Origin: Parvicella tangerina
Lineage (GTDB): Bacteria; Bacteroidota; Bacteroidia; Flavobacteriales_D; Parvicellaceae
Assembly (NCBI RefSeq): GCF_907165195.1
Contig: NZ_OU015584.1
Coordinates: 3,668,978 to 3,732,977, forward strand
Direction: 5' to 3'
DNA: 64,000 nt
The notes below the pieces were generated by a model that was given only the letters and a program-made list of their open reading frames with translations, was not told the DNA's origin and searched no databases. Position numbers and translations under genes: made by a program. How positions within the stretch are numbered: position 1 is the first letter of the stretch; every line of letters starts with the position of its first letter. Positions 41,172 through 51,927 of the stretch are shown piece by piece.

Positions 41172-42296
41172 ATGTTGTTCAAAGACGTCATAGGAAGAGA
41201 AGACCTTAAAGAGCACCTGAAGCATACGGTTCAGAACAAAAGGATTAGTCATGCCCAAATGTTCTTGGGTAAAGAAGGCTCCGGAGGAATTCCCATGGCA
41301 CTAGCCTATACCAGGTATATTCTGTGTGAAAACAGGTCTGAGCAAGACGCTTGTGGAAGCTGTAGAAACTGTATTCGCATGGATAAATTAGAGCATCCGG
41401 ATGTTCATTTTTCGTATCCTGTGCAATTGGTTTCTAAAAAAGTAGATTGTAGTGATGATGTGCTGACTCAATGGCGAGAGTTGATTTCAGAAAATCCTTA
41501 TTTCTCCTCGAGTGACTGGTACGACAAACAACTCGGAAACAAAAAACAAGGAACTATAGGAACAAAGGAGGCTGAAAGTATTGTCAAAAAGCTATCCTTA
41601 AAATCATTTGAAGGAAACTATAAAGTGCTTATCATGTGGCTTCCTGAACTCATGAACATCTCTGCATCTAATAAATTGTTGAAGATCATTGAGGAACCTC
41701 CCGCAAATACGCTTTTTATTCTAGTTTCCGAAAATGCGGATCGTATCATTTCGACCATCTTATCCAGAACACAGTTGGTAAAAGTATTGCCTCCCAAAGA
41801 GGATGAAATCGCCCAATATCTGGCCGATCATTACGAGCTTTCATTTGAAGAAGGGAAAAACTTTGCACATTTGGCCGAACGTAACGTTGCTGAAGCCATC
41901 CATCTGATCAAGCACTCTGAGTCATCTAGCTTTAATATTGAGAACTTCATTCAGTGGATGCGTATCTGCTACAAGAGAGATGTTGCTGAAACCATCAACT
42001 GGGTAGACCAGATCGCTAAAGCAGGGAGAGAAGATCAGAAATCCTTTTTGAAATACTGTTTGCAAATGTTTAGAAACGCCATCGTAGGTCATTACACGGG
42101 TGGTGAAACAGTGACACTAACGAAAGAACAAGAAGGCTTCTTAAAAAAATTCGCTCCGTTTATCAATCACAATAACATTGTACCCTTGACAGAGTCGATT
42201 GAAGAAGCGCACTACCACATTGAGCGGAATGCCAACCCAAAGATTCTCTTCATGGATGTTTCTTTAAAGATTTTCTTACAGCTCAAGAAAGCATAA
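41172..42296 (+). CDS. holB: DNA polymerase III delta' subunit (clamp loader)
   Basis: A 374-residue AAA+ clamp-loader subunit. Seen: the HAQMFLGKEGSGG segment in place of a full Walker A, four Cys of the zinc module (ENRSEQDACGSCRNC), an internal NKLLKIIEEPPANTLFILV motif, and LSRTQ at the SRC position. It helps load the sliding clamp at the fork, together with primase (dnaG is 4 kb away). Its stop is one base from a remnant of the M23 peptidase 3' end, which indicates the ancestral neighbour on the other strand. Confidence 0.93.
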   Translation: MLFKDVIGREDLKEHLKHTVQNKRISHAQMFLGKEGSGGIPMALAYTRYILCENRSEQDACGSCRNCIRMDKLEHPDVHFSYPVQLVSKKVDCSDDVLTQWRELISENPYFSSSDWYDKQLGNKKQGTIGTKEAESIVKKLSLKSFEGNYKVLIMWLPELMNISASNKLLKIIEEPPANTLFILVSENADRIISTILSRTQLVKVLPPKEDEIAQYLADHYELSFEEGKNFAHLAERNVAEAIHLIKHSESSSFNIENFIQWMRICYKRDVAETINWVDQIAKAGREDQKSFLKYCLQMFRNAIVGHYTGGETVTLTKEQEGFLKKFAPFINHNNIVPLTESIEEAHYHIERNANPKILFMDVSLKIFLQLKKA

Positions 42297-42297
42297 T

Positions 42298-42330
42298 TCA
42301 CATAGACTGCGTAGGTTGAGATGAAATCTT
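42298..42330 (-). pseudogene. detached 3' end of the M23 peptidase gene (remnant)
   Basis: On the minus strand these 33 bases encode KISSQPTQSM and a TGA stop, identical in protein sequence to the last ten codons and stop of the intact M23 gene at 49982-50014. About 26 of 33 bases match, and every difference is at a third codon position. There is no start codon, and a TAG lies in frame two codons upstream, so it is not a gene by itself. It lies between the holB stop and the last lipoprotein gene and marks the distal junction of the accessory cluster. Confidence 0.8.
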
Positions 42331-42345
42331 CCGTTGCTAAAGTCG

Positions 42346-43152
42346 TTATAGTTTCCTACCTAGATATTGTCTTTCAACATAATTGGGATCATTCGGGTTA
42401 AAAAATGTAAAGTCCATTTCTACTATTCCATCCATCCTGATATGTACATCACCCTGCATCGCATCACACTGCATGGTACTTACCCCATAAAATCCGAACA
42501 TTTGACGATAATTAGAACCAGTTGGTCTCGCCTGTTGAATACAGTTGCTTCCCAAACCATCATAATTCTCTATATTAAAATAGACATCCCCAACTTGATA
42601 AGTAACATCTATATGAATGTCAAAACTATCCGGCAAATGAGCTGATTTTACTCTAAAATCACCTTCCACAGGACCTAAAATAGCATCTGGACTATTGTAT
42701 ATAGGCAAATTGGAAACGTGGAGTGTTTTTGAAATAGAGTCATACCCATCATCATTGGGTAAACAATTTGTATTCGGTGTTTTTTGCACTGCCAAAGAGA
42801 TAGTGTGGTTTGTCCCAGCTAGTACATCATCAAAATATCGAGTTATTTGCTGATCTGTCACTACCTCTGCCCCCAAATACCAGGTATACTCTGCATTCTC
42901 TTCCAATGCCGTAAAACGAACATTCTTCCCTTTAAAAATAGTATCCGTCTCGGTATATTTGGTTAGGCTAGGTATGGGGGTTGTCAGTTCCTCCATTAAA
43001 AACTCCGCACTCACTTCTGTAGCACAATCACAGGGTTCTTCTGCCTCTTCCATCACTGGAGGTTGCTCCTTTCCGCAACTTGATAGCACCAACAAGATAG
43101 TCAAGAGCATCACTATCCAAGTACTTTTCTTGATCTCCATTAAAAAAGTCAT
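42346..43152 (-). CDS. mosaic lipoprotein paralog D
   Basis: A 268-residue lipoprotein (LVLSSC, lipid Cys26; Met5 is an alternative start). After the Cys comes the block GKEQPPVMEEAEEPCDC shared by all four paralogs, then a PKD/Ig-like domain (about 60-150, with EYTWYLGAEVV and CLPNDDGYDSISK), then a C-terminal domain ending YLGRKL. Its mature region is closest to paralog A (48192-49031), while its signal peptide is closest to paralog C. Function unknown. Last gene of a minus-strand cluster, three bases after paralog C. Confidence 0.8.
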   Translation of the reverse strand: MTFLMEIKKSTWIVMLLTILLVLSSCGKEQPPVMEEAEEPCDCATEVSAEFLMEELTTPIPSLTKYTETDTIFKGKNVRFTALEENAEYTWYLGAEVVTDQQITRYFDDVLAGTNHTISLAVQKTPNTNCLPNDDGYDSISKTLHVSNLPIYNSPDAILGPVEGDFRVKSAHLPDSFDIHIDVTYQVGDVYFNIENYDGLGSNCIQQARPTGSNYRQMFGFYGVSTMQCDAMQGDVHIRMDGIVEMDFTFFNPNDPNYVERQYLGRKL

Positions 43153-43155
43153 TTC

Positions 43156-43980
43156 TTATAGTTTTCTTCCGTGATATATTTCTGGGAAAGGATCCTGTTG
43201 TGAATTGAATACTGGGTTTCCACGAGATATGTACAGATGAAACTCATTATTAAAATCGATCTCCGCTTCATAGTAAAAGCTGTTATAAGGATTAATCGCA
43301 ACTATACCGTCCATTTTAACATAGCGGTAATTTCTCCACAAATAATCTCCCGCTACATAATGATCCAGCGTATCCCCAAGTCCATTATAATTATATATAT
43401 CCACAAAATGACAGTTACCTGCTGATGGGCCTACTTTACGTAAACGTATATCAAACCCAATATCCAGAGAATCAGCAGAACCCTCTGGTGCTACTCTAAA
43501 CCATCCTTCCATCAATGCACTATCACATTTATACATAACTTCAAATGTCTTACTGATAGAATCATAGCCATCATCGTTTGGAAAACAATTAATATTTGGC
43601 TCACTTCTAACGGCTAGAGATACTGTTATCTGTTGACCCACCTGTGCATCATCAAAATATCTGATCACTGATCGTGTATCCAAAACTTCCGTGCCTATAT
43701 ACCAAGTGTAATGGTCAGCATTTTCCATCTTTGCTTTGAATTCTACATTTTTTTGAGATAGAATGACATCCGTTGAAGTACGAATATCAGATTCCCAATT
43801 TCCAAAGGGAGCTAAAATCTCCAAAATCTCAAACTCCGCACTCACCTCCGTAGCACAATCACAAGGATCCTCAGCCTCTTCCATCACTGGAGGTTGTTCC
43901 TTTCCGCAGCTTGATAGCACCAACAAGATAGTTAAGAGCGTCAGTATCCAAGTACTTTTATGAACCCCAATCAAACACAT
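43156..43980 (-). CDS. mosaic lipoprotein paralog C
   Basis: A 274-residue lipoprotein (LVLSSC, lipid Cys25). The mature protein has the shared acidic/Cys block (VMEEAEDPCDCATEVSA), a PKD/Ig-like domain (HYTWYIGTEVLDTRSVIRYF, CFPNDDGYDSISK) and a C-terminal domain ending YHGRKL. Its mature region is close to paralog B (43985-44818), but its signal peptide STWILTLLTILLVLSSC matches paralog D. It shares a 74-bp identical DNA block with paralog A. No known function; an outer-membrane or surface location is inferred from the lipid anchor. Confidence 0.8.
   Translation of the reverse strand: MCLIGVHKSTWILTLLTILLVLSSCGKEQPPVMEEAEDPCDCATEVSAEFEILEILAPFGNWESDIRTSTDVILSQKNVEFKAKMENADHYTWYIGTEVLDTRSVIRYFDDAQVGQQITVSLAVRSEPNINCFPNDDGYDSISKTFEVMYKCDSALMEGWFRVAPEGSADSLDIGFDIRLRKVGPSAGNCHFVDIYNYNGLGDTLDHYVAGDYLWRNYRYVKMDGIVAINPYNSFYYEAEIDFNNEFHLYISRGNPVFNSQQDPFPEIYHGRKL
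43838..43911 (-). repeat. 74-bp block identical to 48880-48953
   Basis: Encodes the conserved segment just after the lipid Cys of paralog C. All 74 bases match the copy in paralog A five kilobases away. Related but diverged copies lie at 43007-43080 (paralog D) and about 44667-44737 (paralog B). Confidence 0.9.
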
Positions 43981-43984
43981 CTCT

Positions 43985-44818
43985 TTATAATTTTCTTCCG
44001 TGATAAATTTCTGGGAAAGGATCCGATTTTGGATTAAAATTGGGATTACCTCTAGAAATATACAAATGGTAAGTATTACTTAAATCCATTTCAGCTTGAC
44101 AATAAAAACTGTTGTATGGATTGATCGGCAGTAAATTCTCCATCGTTATAAATCTATAATTTCTCCATAACCTAAGTTGAGCATGATATCTTTCAATTGT
44201 ATCTCCTTGTAAATTGTAGTTAAAAACATCAGAATAAACACAATTATCTCCAATCGTAGATGATGTTTCCAACCCAATATCAAATCCAATATCAACACTG
44301 TCAGTCGAACCTTCCAAGGCAACTCTAAACCACCCCTCAATCAATGCACTATCGCATTTATACACTACTTCAAATGTCTTACTGATCGAATCATAGCCAT
44401 CATCATTCGGAAAACAATTTGTATTGGGTTCACTCCTTACCGCTAATGAAATGGTTATGGGTTGTCCCACCTGTGCATCATCAAAATATCTGATCACCGA
44501 TCTGGTATCTAAAACTTCTGTGCCTATATACCAAGTGTATTTGTCAGCATTTTCCATTTTTGCTTTGAACTCCACATTTTTTTGTGACAATACTATATCT
44601 GTTGGGGTTTTGATATCCTTCACCCAATAGTTTAGATTAGTCATCAATTCTAAAATCTCAAACTCCGCACTCACTTCTGTAGCACAATCACAAGGTTCTT
44701 CTGCCTCTTCCATCACTGGAGGTTGTTCCTCCTTACTGCATGAAAAAAACAAGATCACTAGCGTAATAAATGCTCTAGTGGTTAAATAATTAACTATATG
44801 TCTCAATGAGTATTTCAT
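43985..44818 (-). CDS. mosaic lipoprotein paralog B
   Basis: A 277-residue lipoprotein. The anchor is FFSC (Cys27), and the signal peptide is unrelated to those of paralogs C and D. The mature part is a near copy of paralog C: KYTWYIGTEVLDTRSVIRYF, CFPNDDGYDSISKTFEV, YKCDSALIEGWFRVA, and the end YHGRKL. Four bases separate it from paralog C downstream. Function unknown. Confidence 0.8.
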   Translation of the reverse strand: MKYSLRHIVNYLTTRAFITLVILFFSCSKEEQPPVMEEAEEPCDCATEVSAEFEILELMTNLNYWVKDIKTPTDIVLSQKNVEFKAKMENADKYTWYIGTEVLDTRSVIRYFDDAQVGQPITISLAVRSEPNTNCFPNDDGYDSISKTFEVVYKCDSALIEGWFRVALEGSTDSVDIGFDIGLETSSTIGDNCVYSDVFNYNLQGDTIERYHAQLRLWRNYRFITMENLLPINPYNSFYCQAEMDLSNTYHLYISRGNPNFNPKSDPFPEIYHGRKL

Positions 44819-44855
44819 TCAGGCATCTTCATTTTATGTTATAGAAAGGACGCTG

Positions 44856-45329
44856 TTATTCTTTCCTAGTCAACACCAGTTTTACAGTACTTCCCTCATA
44901 CCCCACCGTGGTATTGCTCTCAAAGCTCATTTCCTTTTTCTTAGCCTTGATCACCTCATAGTTACCGGAGTAATTGTAACACTGGATCTCTGAAATATCA
45001 GTAATGAAATCACAACAGTCTGCCCCATCTCTTCGATACAAAACAAACTCCTTTCCTTTGTCTTGAAACTGCCAGATAAAATCAGCCGAATTATCTCCAG
45101 TGATCCATTGACCCGTACATGTATCTGCGTAGATATCACAGTCGTCAATCCTCAAGGTGGGTATCACTGTCTCACTTACGCCATCCACAGTTATTTCCGA
45201 AACTTGCCATTCTCCAGACATCACTTCCTTTTGCATCCATCTTTTTGAATAGCGTTCTTCTTTATTGCAGGAGCTTAACAATGAAACGCCCACAAAAAGA
45301 AGCAAAAAATATTTGATCATTTTTATCAT
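44856..45329 (-). CDS. small lipoprotein, lipocalin-like
   Basis: A 157-residue lipoprotein (LLSSC, lipid Cys21). The segment after the anchor (SGEWQVSEITVDG) and the predicted all-beta remainder resemble lipocalin-like lipoproteins of Bacteroidota; eight Cys or so in the middle (DDCDIYADTC, DCC) are unusual. It is unrelated to the A-D paralogs. It overlaps the upstream 953-residue gene by four bases, so the two are translationally coupled and may act together. Confidence 0.75.
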   Translation of the reverse strand: MIKMIKYFLLLFVGVSLLSSCNKEERYSKRWMQKEVMSGEWQVSEITVDGVSETVIPTLRIDDCDIYADTCTGQWITGDNSADFIWQFQDKGKEFVLYRRDGADCCDFITDISEIQCYNYSGNYEVIKAKKKEMSFESNTTVGYEGSTVKLVLTRKE

Positions 45330-48187
45330 TTCTGTATTACCAATTTTTCTGTTTTAGTTAGATTGCCAGATTTTAGTACGACAAAGTAATAACCTGAAGA
45401 CAAGTCCATAAGGTCTAACTCATTTACATTCACCCCTTCAGTTAAATACGCTGCCGATATCTGTTTTGTTGACAATGTTTTACCGGTCATATCTAGTAAG
45501 CTAATATGCAGATCTTCACCTGTTGAACACACAAATCCAATAGCCACAGAACTAGAAGTTGGGTTAGGATATAAATTAAAAGCTAAATATTCTGGTTGGT
45601 CAATTGGCAAGGTATCTTCTTCATCATTGACACGATCAAAATGATTCTTACTTAAGTTCGCTTGATAAGCTGTCCCATTCGGACTATTACCTGCACAGAA
45701 GCTTTCTACATAGGATGTCGTAGCCTCAGGAGTTGGTGATGAATAATCAAGTATGGGTTGAATATCAACGACTACTTCTGGCGCCACTTGAGAATTGTTT
45801 ACTTGGTAAACTTCATTACCAGCCAACATGAAGACATTATATCCATTTGCTACTGTGATATCTCCATCAATGGTCAAATTATTCCAACATTGACAGGTAT
45901 AGGTGGAACCGTTCAGTACACATCCATCTATCGCAGAACCATCAAAATAAGTATCTGTAAATGTTAAATTCTCAGGTGATGCATCAATATCAGAACTAGA
46001 TCCTCCAATATCGGGTACGATCTCAGTATCATTAAGATAAGCTATGTCGTTGGGATCAACTGGATAAGTAAATACATAGGTACCTTCATTCTTATATCCA
46101 TCAGTATCATAAGACTCATAAACAATATGAAGTTGCACTTTTAATTCAACTGCTTGCAGCGTATACTGTAATCCATCAACAGCTGGAACAGAAGGATCCG
46201 CATAAGATGAACTATTGTAATAGGCGTACTGTGTTTCAACTCCCATACTAGGAACCAGCGTATTGAATGCATCAACAGGCACAGATAAACTATTAAATAC
46301 GATCACACAATCTCTATCCAGAATAGGTTCACCAGCCTTCCATAAAGCTTGTTCTGCTGCAGAAAATGGAGTGGATGAAGTGATCATGTGTCTATCAATA
46401 ATATCATAGGCACTGGTTCCCATACTATCTGAAACCACATTTGCCGTTGCCCCTACATGGTTGAAGGCTTGTATGTATTGTCTGTAATGCGCACTATAAA
46501 CAAATGGGTTAGCCGCATCAATATAGGCATCACTCCACTCCATAGCGTCTAAGATGGAATTTCGCTTTACGGTTATTCTATAAGAACACTCCATCGTATA
46601 ACTTTCAATATCCAATGCAGGGTTTAATGTATATTTCAGAGGTTCCGATAATTTCATCTGATACGTCCTTAAATCTTCATTAAAATAGATCGTACCATTC
46701 GGGTTGGAAGGATAACTAATCTGATTGATCAATTCGGGAGAACTCGATGAAAAATCTACTTTTGGACTTTCAAGTAATGCAAAAACTCCTACTCCTGAAT
46801 TATATACTGGATATCCATGAGGAGCATTTTGTAAATCATTCAGCGTATTGTTAGGGTCATCATTATTCATAAATGAACCCGGTGTAAAAAAGGTTGGTCC
46901 ATTCACAGGAGTATAATCTGACATCGTTCCTGAAAATTGCATTTCAGTAAATGAGGCAGTTGGCATACTTGGTTTTGTTGGCTCTTTTTTTGTTTTAAAT
47001 TTATTGATAAAAGTAGTCGCCTCCTTGGATATGGCTTCTTTAGCCTGCTCAACTAATGGATCTAAATCGATGGAATCTTTACCAATTACCTCACCGGCAA
47101 ATTGCTCCAAGGCACCAAACCAAGGCATACCAGTTGCAGCCGTTAAGGCGGCACTTGTCCCATTAACCACAAGATCTTTAAAGGCTTTTAGAATGACTAG
47201 CTTCTTTTCTAAGTCTTCATTATACTGATTTACAGCATCAAGCTCATCTTTATAGGCTTGGTAGGAACTTATGTAGTCATCTACTAGGTCTCCCATTGTT
47301 TTATACATCACATACCCACCATCCATATCTGAACCGTTGGACACATCAATACCACTTAGGAAATCAGCATTCACAACATTTCCATTGGCATCAATAAGAT
47401 CTTGCTCTATCGAAATAGAACGACCATATAATTTAAAATCAGTGACTGAGAAAAATTCAAAGTCTATTGACAATTGCGATGGATAATAACAAACACAGGG
47501 ATCGTAAGTCAACTGAAAATCAACGCTTTTCCAGAAATTAATTTGTCCTGCTGGTGGAGCAACTGCAAACAACTTAGTTGCAACAGTTCCTTTATCCAGT
47601 GTTCTATCGGTTCCTTTAGCTAATCTTAAGATCCCTGATGCAGAAGAAGACTTATACTCAAGTACCACTTTCACACCATCCACAGCATCAACAGGAGGTT
47701 CGTTGTAGCCATACTGGAAAAACAGTCTAAAAACACCTGTATAACGGTTGTAGAAACCTAAATACGGTATTGAAGTTAAATCTACATTGTTATGAATGGT
47801 AACGTTATCCGGATATCGTCCTAAGTTCGCTAACATTAATTCCCACCCGTTATCTGGATGAACATATTCACCTCCAAGATCCTTTCGAAGATATTGATAA
47901 TCAGATATGTTCTGGTTATACGACTGGATATTACTCATCGTTGTGTACGGCTGAGTTGGATTATACATCATGTTATCCAATGAATAACTATTTGGTGTCC
48001 ACCAATCTAACCCATTTAAGTAACGTTGATCTTGTGAATAGGGAGGTCCTGACGTTTGTAAATCAGGTAATTGATCATTATGTGAATTGTTCGGATCGGT
48101 CGACACGTCATGTTCACATTGTGCGTGTGATATTACACCATAGCCTACCAAAAAGCATAGTGTAATTAGTTTATGTAAAGTTTTCAT
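45326..48187 (-). CDS. large secreted protein with T9SS type A sorting domain
   Basis: A 953-residue protein with a signal peptide (about 1-22, SHAQ) and a C-terminal type A sorting domain (about 875-953: AFNLYPNPTSSSVAIGF ... GYYFVVLKSGNLTKTEKLVI). Between them is a large unrecognised region with a short coiled coil and helical stretch (about 300-405, SYQAYKDELDAVNQYNEDLEKK), flanked by beta-rich segments. Exported through the outer membrane by T9SS and probably displayed at the surface. It sits between lipoprotein paralog A (4 bases upstream) and the small lipoprotein. Confidence 0.88.
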   Translation of the reverse strand: MKTLHKLITLCFLVGYGVISHAQCEHDVSTDPNNSHNDQLPDLQTSGPPYSQDQRYLNGLDWWTPNSYSLDNMMYNPTQPYTTMSNIQSYNQNISDYQYLRKDLGGEYVHPDNGWELMLANLGRYPDNVTIHNNVDLTSIPYLGFYNRYTGVFRLFFQYGYNEPPVDAVDGVKVVLEYKSSSASGILRLAKGTDRTLDKGTVATKLFAVAPPAGQINFWKSVDFQLTYDPCVCYYPSQLSIDFEFFSVTDFKLYGRSISIEQDLIDANGNVVNADFLSGIDVSNGSDMDGGYVMYKTMGDLVDDYISSYQAYKDELDAVNQYNEDLEKKLVILKAFKDLVVNGTSAALTAATGMPWFGALEQFAGEVIGKDSIDLDPLVEQAKEAISKEATTFINKFKTKKEPTKPSMPTASFTEMQFSGTMSDYTPVNGPTFFTPGSFMNNDDPNNTLNDLQNAPHGYPVYNSGVGVFALLESPKVDFSSSSPELINQISYPSNPNGTIYFNEDLRTYQMKLSEPLKYTLNPALDIESYTMECSYRITVKRNSILDAMEWSDAYIDAANPFVYSAHYRQYIQAFNHVGATANVVSDSMGTSAYDIIDRHMITSSTPFSAAEQALWKAGEPILDRDCVIVFNSLSVPVDAFNTLVPSMGVETQYAYYNSSSYADPSVPAVDGLQYTLQAVELKVQLHIVYESYDTDGYKNEGTYVFTYPVDPNDIAYLNDTEIVPDIGGSSSDIDASPENLTFTDTYFDGSAIDGCVLNGSTYTCQCWNNLTIDGDITVANGYNVFMLAGNEVYQVNNSQVAPEVVVDIQPILDYSSPTPEATTSYVESFCAGNSPNGTAYQANLSKNHFDRVNDEEDTLPIDQPEYLAFNLYPNPTSSSVAIGFVCSTGEDLHISLLDMTGKTLSTKQISAAYLTEGVNVNELDLMDLSSGYYFVVLKSGNLTKTEKLVIQK

Positions 48188-48191
48188 TTAT

Positions 48192-49031
48192 TTAAATTTT
48201 TCTACCAGAATAAATTGTTTCGTAATAATCTGGACTATTGGGGTTACTAGAACCAAAAGACAAGTGCATTTCTACTTTCATATTGGGTGAAAGGTAAATA
48301 TCGCCTCCTAAATAATTGTACTCCGTAATGGTAGGTTCAACCCAAAGTTGTCTGTAGTTGATTCCTTCCAAACTCAATCCTGTAGCCAATGTAGATCCTG
48401 AGGTATAAACAGCATTGGAACCGACTCCATCGTAATTATAAAAATTCAACGTAGGAGCTCCAAAATGACCTGCAACGATATCTAAAGTAATATCCGCACT
48501 ATCACTAATTGCAGGGATATACACTCGATAAGTCCCTTCTATACTTCCGTATTCCAAGTCGCTACCATTATCTATAGGGTAACTGGATATATTTAAAGGT
48601 CGAGAAATAGAATCATACCCGTCATCATCAGGAAAACAATTCGTGTTGGGCGTCTTGTTTACCACCAAAGAAATCGTTTGATTAATTCCAGCTAACCCAT
48701 CACTAAAATAGCGGATCACTTGTTGATCATTGACGACTTCTGTCCCCAAATACCAGGTGTATTCCGCATCCTGCTCCAATGCTGTAAAACGAACATTCTT
48801 GTTTTTAAGAATGGTATCGGTATCAGTATAGAGTGCGAAGTTGGTATTTCCTGTTGTCATTTCTTCAATCAAGAAATTGGCACTCACCTCCGTAGCACAA
48901 TCACAAGGATCCTCAGCCTCTTCCATCACTGGAGGTTGTTCCTTTCCGCAGCTAGTGGATAACGTGAGCACCCATCCAGCTATCACAGGTAAGATGAGCT
49001 TATTCTTCTGTTTCTTCAACGCTTTCTTCAT
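48192..49031 (-). CDS. mosaic lipoprotein paralog A
   Basis: A 279-residue lipoprotein (LSTSC, lipid Cys28). Shared block GKEQPPVMEEAEDPCDC, then the PKD/Ig-like domain (EYTWYLGTEVVNDQQVIRYF, CFPDDDGYDSISR) and a C-terminal domain ending YSGRKI. It groups with paralog D in the mature region but shares a 74-bp identical DNA block with paralog C. Its start overlaps the end of the tail-fibre-like gene by 32 bases. Confidence 0.8.
   Translation of the reverse strand: MKKALKKQKNKLILPVIAGWVLTLSTSCGKEQPPVMEEAEDPCDCATEVSANFLIEEMTTGNTNFALYTDTDTILKNKNVRFTALEQDAEYTWYLGTEVVNDQQVIRYFSDGLAGINQTISLVVNKTPNTNCFPDDDGYDSISRPLNISSYPIDNGSDLEYGSIEGTYRVYIPAISDSADITLDIVAGHFGAPTLNFYNYDGVGSNAVYTSGSTLATGLSLEGINYRQLWVEPTITEYNYLGGDIYLSPNMKVEMHLSFGSSNPNSPDYYETIYSGRKI
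48880..48953 (-). repeat. 74-bp block identical to 43838-43911
   Basis: The second copy of the identical block, encoding the post-anchor segment of paralog A. Perfect identity over 74 bases between otherwise diverged genes suggests recent gene conversion. Confidence 0.9.
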
Positions 49032-49857
49032 TCTTTAAAACTTCTATCTCTTCTTTCAATTGTAGAATATATAACGTTAATTCTTCTACTTTCTCCAAAA
49101 GAACTCTGTTCATTTCTCCTAAATCTACTCCTTCTGATTCGTATTCGCATGCTGAAGGAACGTTTGGTAAGTGCTCCTCGGTTTCTATGTAGTTTTGAAG
49201 ACTATCTAACGACATCAATTCATACTCTTCATCAAACACATAATCAGGAATATTATTTAAAGTAGTTGTATACTTTCTGGCAAAGACCTCCCCTTCTCTA
49301 GTTACCGTAAATGACTTATCATTTTCTGTAGTTCCGTTCATTACCTCAATGGCATTAGAATTTTCTCTTACATAGACTCTTATTCCGTATTTACCAGCAG
49401 TAACATTCTTTACGTACAACGTATTATCACCACTTGCTAAATAGTTGATTTTAGCATAAGTTGTTACTACACCAGGGTTCATTCCGATTCCCATTCTATT
49501 ATTGGCTCCATACATGTTGATCCCAATACCACCAGTGCTTATGGACATATTGCCCCCTTCTTGGTTGCTGATCACACTATTCGTCTCACTCATTCTGATT
49601 AACAGTCCGTCTGTAGATTGATCACCCACACTACTATTCGTTAATAACAATCTTGAAGTCTTACCGTGATTAATTGTAAATCTCTGCGCTACTCCACCTG
49701 TTGAATAATCTGTTGTGCCATGTATTTGTAAATTAGCGTTGGGAGAAGTTATTCCTATCCCTGTATTTCCACTCGGAGTAGGAAAAACATTATTTTGTCC
49801 AAAGGACAGCGTAAAAAATGCAAATGATGAGATTGTTAACCAGACTTTATTTTTCAC
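49000..49857 (-). CDS. secreted tail-fibre-like protein with C-terminal coiled coil
   Basis: A 285-residue protein if started at the GTG at 49857, which gives a clean signal peptide (KNKVWLTISSFAFFTLSFGQ); the frame itself is open to 49950. The N-terminal half has the GNTGIGITSPNANLQIHG pattern of Bacteroidota phage-tail-like/S74-related surface proteins. The C-terminal part has NIPDYVFDEEYELMSLDSL, LPNVPSA and a coiled coil (LLEKVEELTLYILQLKEEI), a common trimerisation-type ending. It is the first gene of the accessory cluster. A pair of 13-bp direct repeats lies upstream. It is not evidence of a prophage by itself. Confidence 0.78.
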   Translation of the reverse strand: MKNKVWLTISSFAFFTLSFGQNNVFPTPSGNTGIGITSPNANLQIHGTTDYSTGGVAQRFTINHGKTSRLLLTNSSVGDQSTDGLLIRMSETNSVISNQEGGNMSISTGGIGINMYGANNRMGIGMNPGVVTTYAKINYLASGDNTLYVKNVTAGKYGIRVYVRENSNAIEVMNGTTENDKSFTVTREGEVFARKYTTTLNNIPDYVFDEEYELMSLDSLQNYIETEEHLPNVPSACEYESEGVDLGEMNRVLLEKVEELTLYILQLKEEIEVLKNEESVEETEE

Positions 49858-49929
49858 TTCTAAAAGTTTTATTTGGTACAAATAATGACAATTGATAAAC
49901 AAAAAACAAATAGTTATGCCGCAAAACAG

Positions 49930-49963
49930 GTATAAACACCTAAAAAACACGTATAAATACCTA
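49930..49963 (-). promoter_or_regulatory. paired direct repeats with 21-bp period upstream of the accessory cluster
   Basis: GTATAAACACCTA (49930-49942) and GTATAAATACCTA (49951-49963), plus-strand reading, differ at one base and start 21 bases apart, two helical turns. They lie about 75-105 bases before the GTG start of the first cluster gene, between it and the M23 stop. The geometry is that of LytTR-type operator pairs; the identity of any binding protein is inference. Confidence 0.45.
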
Positions 49964-49981
49964 CGTCTGAAAAATAAAAAA

Positions 49982-50950
49982 TCACATCGACTGTGTTGGC
50001 TGAGAGGAGATTTTCACGACCTCATCAAACTCTTCTGGAGAAAGATCATTAAAGAAGTAATTTACTGGGTTTACAAGATTTCCTTTATACATCACTTCAT
50101 AATGTAAATGAGGACCCACAGAGGCTCCTGTATTCCCGACAAGAGCAATAATATCACCACGTTTTACTTTATCTCCTTTCTTGCACTTGTACTCACTACA
50201 ATGCGCATAGCGTGTTTTATAGCCAAAGCCATGATCTAAGATTACAATTTGGCCATAACCGCTCATTACTTTACACTCTTCAACTACGGCATCTCCAGTA
50301 GCAAAAATCGGAGTTCCTATATCAGCGGTAAAATCAAGCCCCGTGTGCATCTTTAGGATTTTATAGATGGGGTGCATCCGCATACCAAAACCTGATGCAA
50401 TATGCGTTAAATCTTCATTGTGAATAGGTTGAATAGAAGGAACGGATTGCAGTAAATCTTCTTTTTGCTTTGCCATAGCAATGACCGAATCAAAACTTAT
50501 GCTTTGTGCGTACAGTTTTTTCTCTACAATGGCAATCTGTTGTGACACTTCAAATAACAGGTCTCCATGCTCAAGGTCTTTGTACTTGTCTTTGACATTC
50601 GGGTTACCACCTACACCCAACTCTCTTTTATATTGAGGATATGGATCTGCCCCAAAAATAACTCGATAAATATTATCATCTTTTTGTTGCAAATCAGAAC
50701 TGATTTCCTTCAAGTTGTTGACCTGTTCTTTGAGTTCAGCAATTTCTGCCTCATGCTTTTCAATGTCATATTGCACTTCTTTCTTCCCTATATTCTTGAT
50801 GTAACCGTAAGAAAAGAAGAGAATTAAAACGGAAGCAACAAACGCTGCAATCGCATAGTAAGAGAGCCTTTTTAAGTGATCTTTCCAGGTTAATTCAACC
50901 TCATCATAACTCAGCGTCTCCGGATTATATTTATACTTGACCTTGCTCAT
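49982..50950 (-). CDS. M23 family metallopeptidase (LytM-type)
   Basis: A 322-residue inner-membrane-anchored peptidoglycan endopeptidase or division regulator: cytoplasmic N-terminus, one membrane helix (about 32-52), a coiled coil (about 58-90), and the M23 domain (about 195-300) with zinc ligands in HTGLDF and HLHYEV and the YGQIVILDHG/RYAHC motifs. The last ten residues, KISSQPTQSM, are repeated at 42298-42330 next to holB. The catalytic domain is complete. Confidence 0.95.
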   Translation of the reverse strand: MSKVKYKYNPETLSYDEVELTWKDHLKRLSYYAIAAFVASVLILFFSYGYIKNIGKKEVQYDIEKHEAEIAELKEQVNNLKEISSDLQQKDDNIYRVIFGADPYPQYKRELGVGGNPNVKDKYKDLEHGDLLFEVSQQIAIVEKKLYAQSISFDSVIAMAKQKEDLLQSVPSIQPIHNEDLTHIASGFGMRMHPIYKILKMHTGLDFTADIGTPIFATGDAVVEECKVMSGYGQIVILDHGFGYKTRYAHCSEYKCKKGDKVKRGDIIALVGNTGASVGPHLHYEVMYKGNLVNPVNYFFNDLSPEEFDEVVKISSQPTQSM

Positions 50951-51042: not shown

Positions 51043-51927
51043 ATGAAAAAGCACTTCTATTTTTTGATCTCTTGTATACTTATATTGCAGAGTATACAAT
51101 GCTCCTCGCAAACCTATTTACCTTTGATTGGACAAACCAACAGATGGAGTGTAACCAACTGTTTTAATGGCTGTTTGACCGATACTTATTTTTTAGATGG
51201 AGATACCACCATCAATGGTAAAGGTTATCGGGTGCTAAATGGTTATCATTTTATTTCGGGCTCCTTCTTGATTCGTGAAGAAGTTGCTTCAAAGAAAGTT
51301 TTCATTGGCATAATCAACGGCAATAAGCTGGATGAGTACCTTGTTTATGACTTCGGTATTCAGGTTGGAGATTCCGTTCAGGTTTTTAACCCAATTAGTC
51401 CGCTGCCAACAAACGTTGGCAAGTTGTATCTGGACTCCACCTCAACACAAGTACTTGATGACGGTATCTTTCATAATGTTTTCTATCTATCCACAGTTAA
51501 TAATCAGTATCGTCCTGTTTGGATAGAGGGGGTTGGCTCTTTAACCCTGATTAATACACCATGTGCCACGCCTGATGTAAATAGTGTTGGACACTTGAGT
51601 TGTTATACGCGCAATGATATTTTTACTTATAGCAATCTTGACTCTATAGAAAGTTGCTCCTCACATATTGCCTTATCTTCTGATTCTTTCTCTGAATCCA
51701 AAAAAACTATTTCAATCACAAATACGAATACCCTGGTAAAAATTGAAAATCTACCTTCTTATTGTCAAATTGGTATCTACAGTATGAATGGTCTTCTTCT
51801 TCACCAAGAAAACTTAGGAGAAGCAGCAACTCCAGAAATTGACATCAATCATTTGGCAAAAGGCATCTACCTCATTACTGTTACTTCATCAAATGAGTTT
51901 TGGTCCAAGAAATTCATCAAGCTTTAA
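51043..51927 (+). CDS. secreted protein with T9SS type A sorting domain
   Basis: A 294-residue protein with a signal peptide (about 1-23) and a C-terminal Por-type sorting domain (about 220-294: SITNTNTLVKIENL ... GIYSMNGLLLHQENL ... KGIYLITVTSSNEFWSKKFI). The central part (about 25-210) is not recognised and holds several Cys. Exported by T9SS. Its end overlaps the convergent methyltransferase gene by 11 bases. Confidence 0.85.
   Translation: MKKHFYFLISCILILQSIQCSSQTYLPLIGQTNRWSVTNCFNGCLTDTYFLDGDTTINGKGYRVLNGYHFISGSFLIREEVASKKVFIGIINGNKLDEYLVYDFGIQVGDSVQVFNPISPLPTNVGKLYLDSTSTQVLDDGIFHNVFYLSTVNNQYRPVWIEGVGSLTLINTPCATPDVNSVGHLSCYTRNDIFTYSNLDSIESCSSHIALSSDSFSESKKTISITNTNTLVKIENLPSYCQIGIYSMNGLLLHQENLGEAATPEIDINHLAKGIYLITVTSSNEFWSKKFIKL

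Follow-up and report, generated by a model that had tools for sequence, protein, structure and literature searches.

The window, by which we mean the whole 64-kb stretch of Parvicella tangerina DNA analysed here (genome G000), carries an island of about 7.7 kb with seven accessory genes between the gene for an M23 family peptidase and holB. We consider it about an even chance (probability near 0.5) that this cassette was gained recently, together with an M23 allele or the 3′ part of one from a related species, by recombination that was homologous on one side and illegitimate on the other. The observations behind this reading are a remnant of an M23 gene beside holB, the synonymous-only divergence of this remnant from the intact gene end, an island-free locus in a close relative, further copies of the cassette in other genomes of the order, and the finding that no tyrosine recombinase lies nearby.

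The convergent flank of the island is holB (41172-42296, plus strand), which codes for the delta' subunit of DNA polymerase III (Pfam DNA_pol3_delta2, 1.5e-41) and ends with a stop codon at 42294-42296. A single base (42297) separates it from the stop codon of an orphan M23 3′ end on the minus strand (42298-42330; AAGATTTCATCTCAACCTACGCAGTCTATGTGA), which encodes the residues KISSQPTQSM. The intact M23 gene (49982-50950, minus strand; Peptidase_M23, 1.9e-31) terminates with the same ten residues and a stop (49982-50014; AAAATCTCCTCTCAGCCAACACAGTCGATGTGA). The two ends are identical at 26/33 bases, their longest common run is 6 bp, and all seven differences are synonymous changes at codon position 3. 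This repeat was described in the preliminary description, on the same strand and 1 bp from the holB stop, and every detail proved exact. The accompanying claim that the repeat is a homologous M23 end, not a chance match, also holds: the next best ungapped match in the window reaches 20/33, and a degenerate pattern searched with up to three mismatches against the 3.98-Mb single-contig genome finds these two sites and no third copy. The reversed pattern, used as a control in the same search, gave 0 sites. Upstream of the lysine codon of the orphan, the frame is closed by a stop (it reads RL, stop, QRKISSQPTQSM, stop), so that homology to M23 is limited to 33-34 bp. The orphan is joined to the stop codon of the first lipoprotein gene by 15 bp (42331-42345); these might have been the leftover of another lipoprotein gene start, but the similarity to such starts is not significant. 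Next to the stop of the intact M23 gene, a degenerate copy of the holB end was also considered; it reached its score in 12/1000 shuffles, yet ranked only 5360th of 127,940 positions, and was dropped.

Seven of the nine silently variable, and hence informative, codons differ between the orphan and the intact end. Over the whole M23 gene, a fraction of 0.55-0.56 of the codons for identical residues differ between G000 and other species of the genus (0.56 for G002, the closest relative compared, with an M23 that is 70% identical). When a neutrally evolving orphan was simulated against a constrained copy, at least seven differences with an unchanged peptide had a probability of about 5e-5 or lower at every depth tried, which led us to reject an old neutral leftover; when both lineages were constrained, the probability of the observed pattern reached up to 0.42. 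The silent-only divergence and the simulations thus favour a divergence of the two ends within two functional genes, of the kind seen between species, with one end orphaned recently. Judged from sequence, the conclusion that one of the two ends must be either an allele of foreign origin or what was once a paralogue is thereby supported and sharpened. M23 ends differing at the species level could also result from an assembly that is a chimaera of two strains. We regard this as extremely improbable, given a single-contig genome that is 99.8% complete and 0.19% contaminated, and a join that lies between intact cassette genes and holB within one conserved flank order.

The silent divergence of the ends is at a between-species level, yet the M23 tree follows the species tree. 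Both the M23 and the holB tree place G000 outside G001 and G002, and the gene as a whole is not marked as foreign beyond the G000 branch; a transfer of the whole M23 gene from outside the clade is unsupported by the tree. Along M23, identity does not change clearly at any one point. In GC content and GC3, M23 and the cassette do not stand out strikingly from the neighbouring genes, and they give no clear signal of a foreign base composition. An alignment of both 33-bp ends to the M23 genes of relatives, proposed earlier as a way to recognise the native end, was carried out. Orphan and intact end match the genes of G002 and G001 about equally, G003 alone leans towards the orphan (26 vs. 21 of 33 bases), and 33 bp cannot decide which end is native. 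This would allow for an orphan that arrived with the cassette, as a truncated M23 end already adjoining it in the donor, and for an intact M23 that is native. The orphan, however, is 1 bp away from holB, a gene found near M23 in G002, and the simplest reading is that it is the resident end; its arrival with the cassette is very unlikely.

In G002 (locus L116), the genes for CvpA, holB, a J-domain protein, M23, TrmH, mutS and usp (a universal-stress gene) are arranged in this order on one contig, and the island is lacking. holB and M23 are convergent, and the gap between them is filled by the single J-domain gene (177 aa, L116:9459-9992), with spacers of 3 and 8 bp. Only weak relatives of this gene (best 40% identity) are encoded in G000. 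The gene order in the window corresponds to that of G002, except that the island replaces the J-domain gene and that an extra gene for a T9SS protein (51043-51927, plus strand), overlapping the TrmH end, is found between M23 and TrmH. This extra gene is missing from the G002 locus, so both sides of M23 have changed; it may have been inserted separately or have arrived in the same import. The earlier proposal that M23 and holB were once adjacent is thus supported as a close neighbourhood in convergent orientation, with the J-domain gene between them in G002. The further proposal that the island entered later between the two genes is supported by the island-free, convergent arrangement in G002 and also by the lack of the cassette in 38 other genomes of the family. 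In G001, which the trees of both M23 and holB group with G002, holB directly precedes the stress gene, and M23, TrmH and mutS are found elsewhere (G001-G003 are draft genomes, in which absences are soft). Because G000 branches outside G001 and G002 and G001 lacks M23, TrmH and mutS at this position, the M23-holB neighbourhood is, by parsimony, older than the split between G000 and G002 and was lost in G001. M23 and holB were not found near each other in the remaining relatives.

As an alternative, an older tandem duplication of M23 followed by a deletion had been suggested. Two functional tandem M23 paralogues before holB would have accumulated silent differences, and on arrival of the cassette the copy nearer to holB would have lost its body. 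This explains the synonymous-only divergence without a donor. That remnants of paralogue ends can occur is illustrated by a SpoIIE/PP2C-type gene of the same genome (3535831-3537963), a member of a family with tandem paralogues that has an orphan end 40 bp downstream. Against this stands the copy number of the M23 subfamily: among the 57 relatives with matches at E ≤ 1e-60, none has more than one, and G000 has no second close paralogue of this M23. A long coexistence of the paralogues would be required as well, followed by two separate events. With a single copy in every matching relative, tandem duplication is disfavoured and we consider it rather unlikely.

Between the two M23 ends, all seven annotated genes are accessory, in agreement with the gene list given earlier, and all are on the minus strand. 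The first cassette gene codes for a tail-fibre-like protein (49000-49857) with a probable GTG start, the longest ORF reaching 49950; its homologues accompany or head other cassettes. It is followed by lipD (48192-49031), by a gene for a T9SS type A secreted protein of 953 aa (45326-48187), by slip (44856-45329), which codes for a small, weakly lipocalin-like lipoprotein (Lipocalin_4, below the curated cut-off), and by three further lipoprotein genes: lipC (43985-44818), lipB (43156-43980) and lipA (42346-43152). The four lip genes code for cassette lipoproteins; slip and the T9SS gene are conserved cassette members. The T9SS protein carries a C-terminal Por_Secre_tail sorting domain (1.7e-12; 47.9 bits vs. 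a cut-off of 27 in Pfam, 42.6 vs. 23 for TIGR04183); its AlphaFold model (pLDDT 44) was too poor for use. Between the M23 stop and the tail-fibre-like gene are two copies of a 21-bp direct repeat (AAAACACGTATAAACACCTAA; 49923-49963), which are two helical turns apart and represent a candidate operator. The repeat recurs once elsewhere (G000:C1:2557598-2557630; L230:1501-1533), close to a small zinc-ribbon-like ORF that is oriented the other way.

The lipD product has a signal peptide, a PKD-like domain and a C-terminal beta domain in its predicted structure (AlphaFold, pLDDT 85). Residues 46-150 of the lip family are modelled as a PKD fold (Z 9.6 to 1l0q; PKD domains of ColG also match), and a Pfam search by sequence gave no match. 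For the C-terminal domain, fold matches were middling at best (3rwx, Z 7.5), and we claim no family for it. From the lipoprotein signals, the T9SS sorting domain and the predicted PKD fold, the cassette products may act at the cell surface as binding or adhesion proteins. Surface glycan-binding lipoproteins of Bacteroides (SGBP-B, 7kv7) resemble the lip family in having a signal peptide, a PKD/Ig-like domain and a beta-rich domain; however, only the PKD-like part aligns well, and the seven cargo genes include none for polysaccharide utilisation. Tandem lipoprotein paralogues in variable number are also found in another accessory locus, the vSa-alpha lpl islands of S. aureus, as outlined in PMC4470592. 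The sequences are unrelated as far as known, and in the cassette the lipoproteins are joined by T9SS and tail-fibre-like proteins.

The cassette is rare in the family and patchy in the order. Relatives of the T9SS protein were not found in the 38 other family genomes, and for the lipoprotein, the matches listed include no family genome besides G000 itself. Within the order, the lipoprotein is present in 19/298 other genomes. Where the surroundings were read, it co-occurs with a tail-fibre-like gene, one to several lipoprotein genes, the T9SS protein and a small lipocalin-like lipoprotein, although membership varies and some copies do not have all members. The flanks are unrelated between genera; one site is common to three species of one genus (L217, L219, L224), near rod-shape genes. 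At this site the T9SS protein is present or absent and the number of lipoproteins varies, which suggests turnover within the cassette. On sequence grounds, we regard the set as a recurring, patchily distributed surface-protein cassette that occupies several unrelated sites in the order; a prior description of a cassette combining tail-fibre-like, PKD lipoprotein, T9SS and lipocalin-like proteins was not found. A phage or plasmid derivation was rejected: comparison of the lipoprotein with plasmids, of the tail-fibre-like protein with phages and of the lipoprotein alignment with viral contigs gave 0 matches. PADLOC gave no match on the cassette, and PHROG gave a single weak match of the small lipoprotein to a family without an assigned function.

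In bacteriophage 21 and the element e14, which integrate at icd, the end of the target gene is duplicated, with the functional and the old end at opposite sides and silent differences between them. The M23 island has the same layout, with a restored gene, the old end at the far side and both on the same strand. This had led to an analogy with integrative elements, in which the island would be a mobile element, perhaps decayed, that entered by site-specific recombination at the M23 3′ end and carried a replacement end, comparable to icd and tRNA elements. A second island in the genome, between duplicated nth 3′ ends with an identical run of 55 bp, is in line with this. Such elements require an identical crossover core, however, and the M23 ends (26/33) share no identical core of 7 bp or more. 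The previously noted absence of a visible integrase is confirmed by Pfam for site-specific recombinases in the seven cargo genes and for PF00589 (Phage_integrase), the nearest match being about 78 kb away; the tyrosine recombinase family is the only one searched genome-wide. Elsewhere, the cassette is not tied to gene ends: the other copies have no common attachment gene, their flanks are unrelated except at the site in the three congeneric species, and flanking duplication is above background in 0/8 other cassettes. The cassette also has no detected phage or plasmid relatives. The analogy thus does not hold up well, and we consider an integrative element unlikely.

Other orphan 3′ ends were searched in 1.65 Mb of the genome (1372 ORFs, copies within 25 kb); a tblastn scan at E ≤ 0.2 is too insensitive for ten-residue ends and missed M23 itself. 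Three orphan 3′ ends were found downstream of the intact gene on the same strand (M23, nth and the SpoIIE-type gene), and no convincing orphan 5′ start. At G000:C1:115575-117605 (L279:15575-17605), one gene for an AAA_14/DUF4143 ATPase is located between the intact nth 3′ end and its orphan copy (129 bp, about 90% identical, with a 1-bp deletion), a clear case; in 13 relatives, the 1.5 kb around nth contained no such ATPase gene. The orphan end at the SpoIIE/PP2C-type gene (G000:C1:3535755-3537963; NVCVIGVRI and a stop) is mostly silently diverged, and with tandem paralogues elsewhere in the genome it may be a deleted tandem paralogue. Two further candidates were discarded. The match at 3234215 is a short paralogue, and at 3782767 a PorP-type orphan end seems to have been left by a 3.3-kb tandem duplication (G000:C1:3779454-3783338), in which two duplicated gene ends (PTVRTPRFL, RRTEFKVKKK) have a common spacing of 3313 bp. 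One could imagine that accessory genes in this lineage have landed repeatedly at the 3′ ends of conserved genes, being added downstream with duplication of the end and without a recombinase of their own (M23, nth and possibly the SpoIIE-type gene). If true, Bacteroidetes would have a way of gaining genes that involves no recombinase and has so far gone unrecognised. Two or three cases are too few to establish a mechanism, and selection would also favour joins at 3′ ends since the gene is kept working; we find this generalisation decidedly doubtful.

We thus return to an import from a related species. The incoming DNA would have comprised the cassette and an M23 allele or its 3′ part. On one side it would have recombined by homology in or near M23; on the other, the join would have been non-homologous and would have fallen within the last eleven codons of the resident M23. 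The cell would have been left with one working M23, the gained cassette and the last 33 bp of the old M23 beside holB. Such an event accounts for the silent divergence, the intact M23, the orphan abutting holB and the absence of a recombinase, and the nth island, with different cargo, is a second case in the same genome. Homology is available on the M23 side, and the far side has the 33-bp M23 end and no long homology. We infer an imported origin for the intact M23 end, a sister species as the probable donor and an illegitimate join on one side only; a donor genome was not found among the genomes searched. A process of this kind, with homology on one side and an illegitimate far end, has been described (PMC3240628). 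Homology-facilitated illegitimate recombination, which would account for a foreign segment with homology at one gene and a non-homologous join at the other side, is known from experiments with short linear DNA, whereas here it would apply to a natural event of 7.7 kb.

The orphan end may be viewed as a dated footprint. Its peptide is unchanged although 7/9 informative codons differ, which points to a recent acquisition and means that both ends must have belonged to working genes while they diverged. The locus shows how accessory genes for surface proteins can be gained between housekeeping genes with no integrase in evidence.
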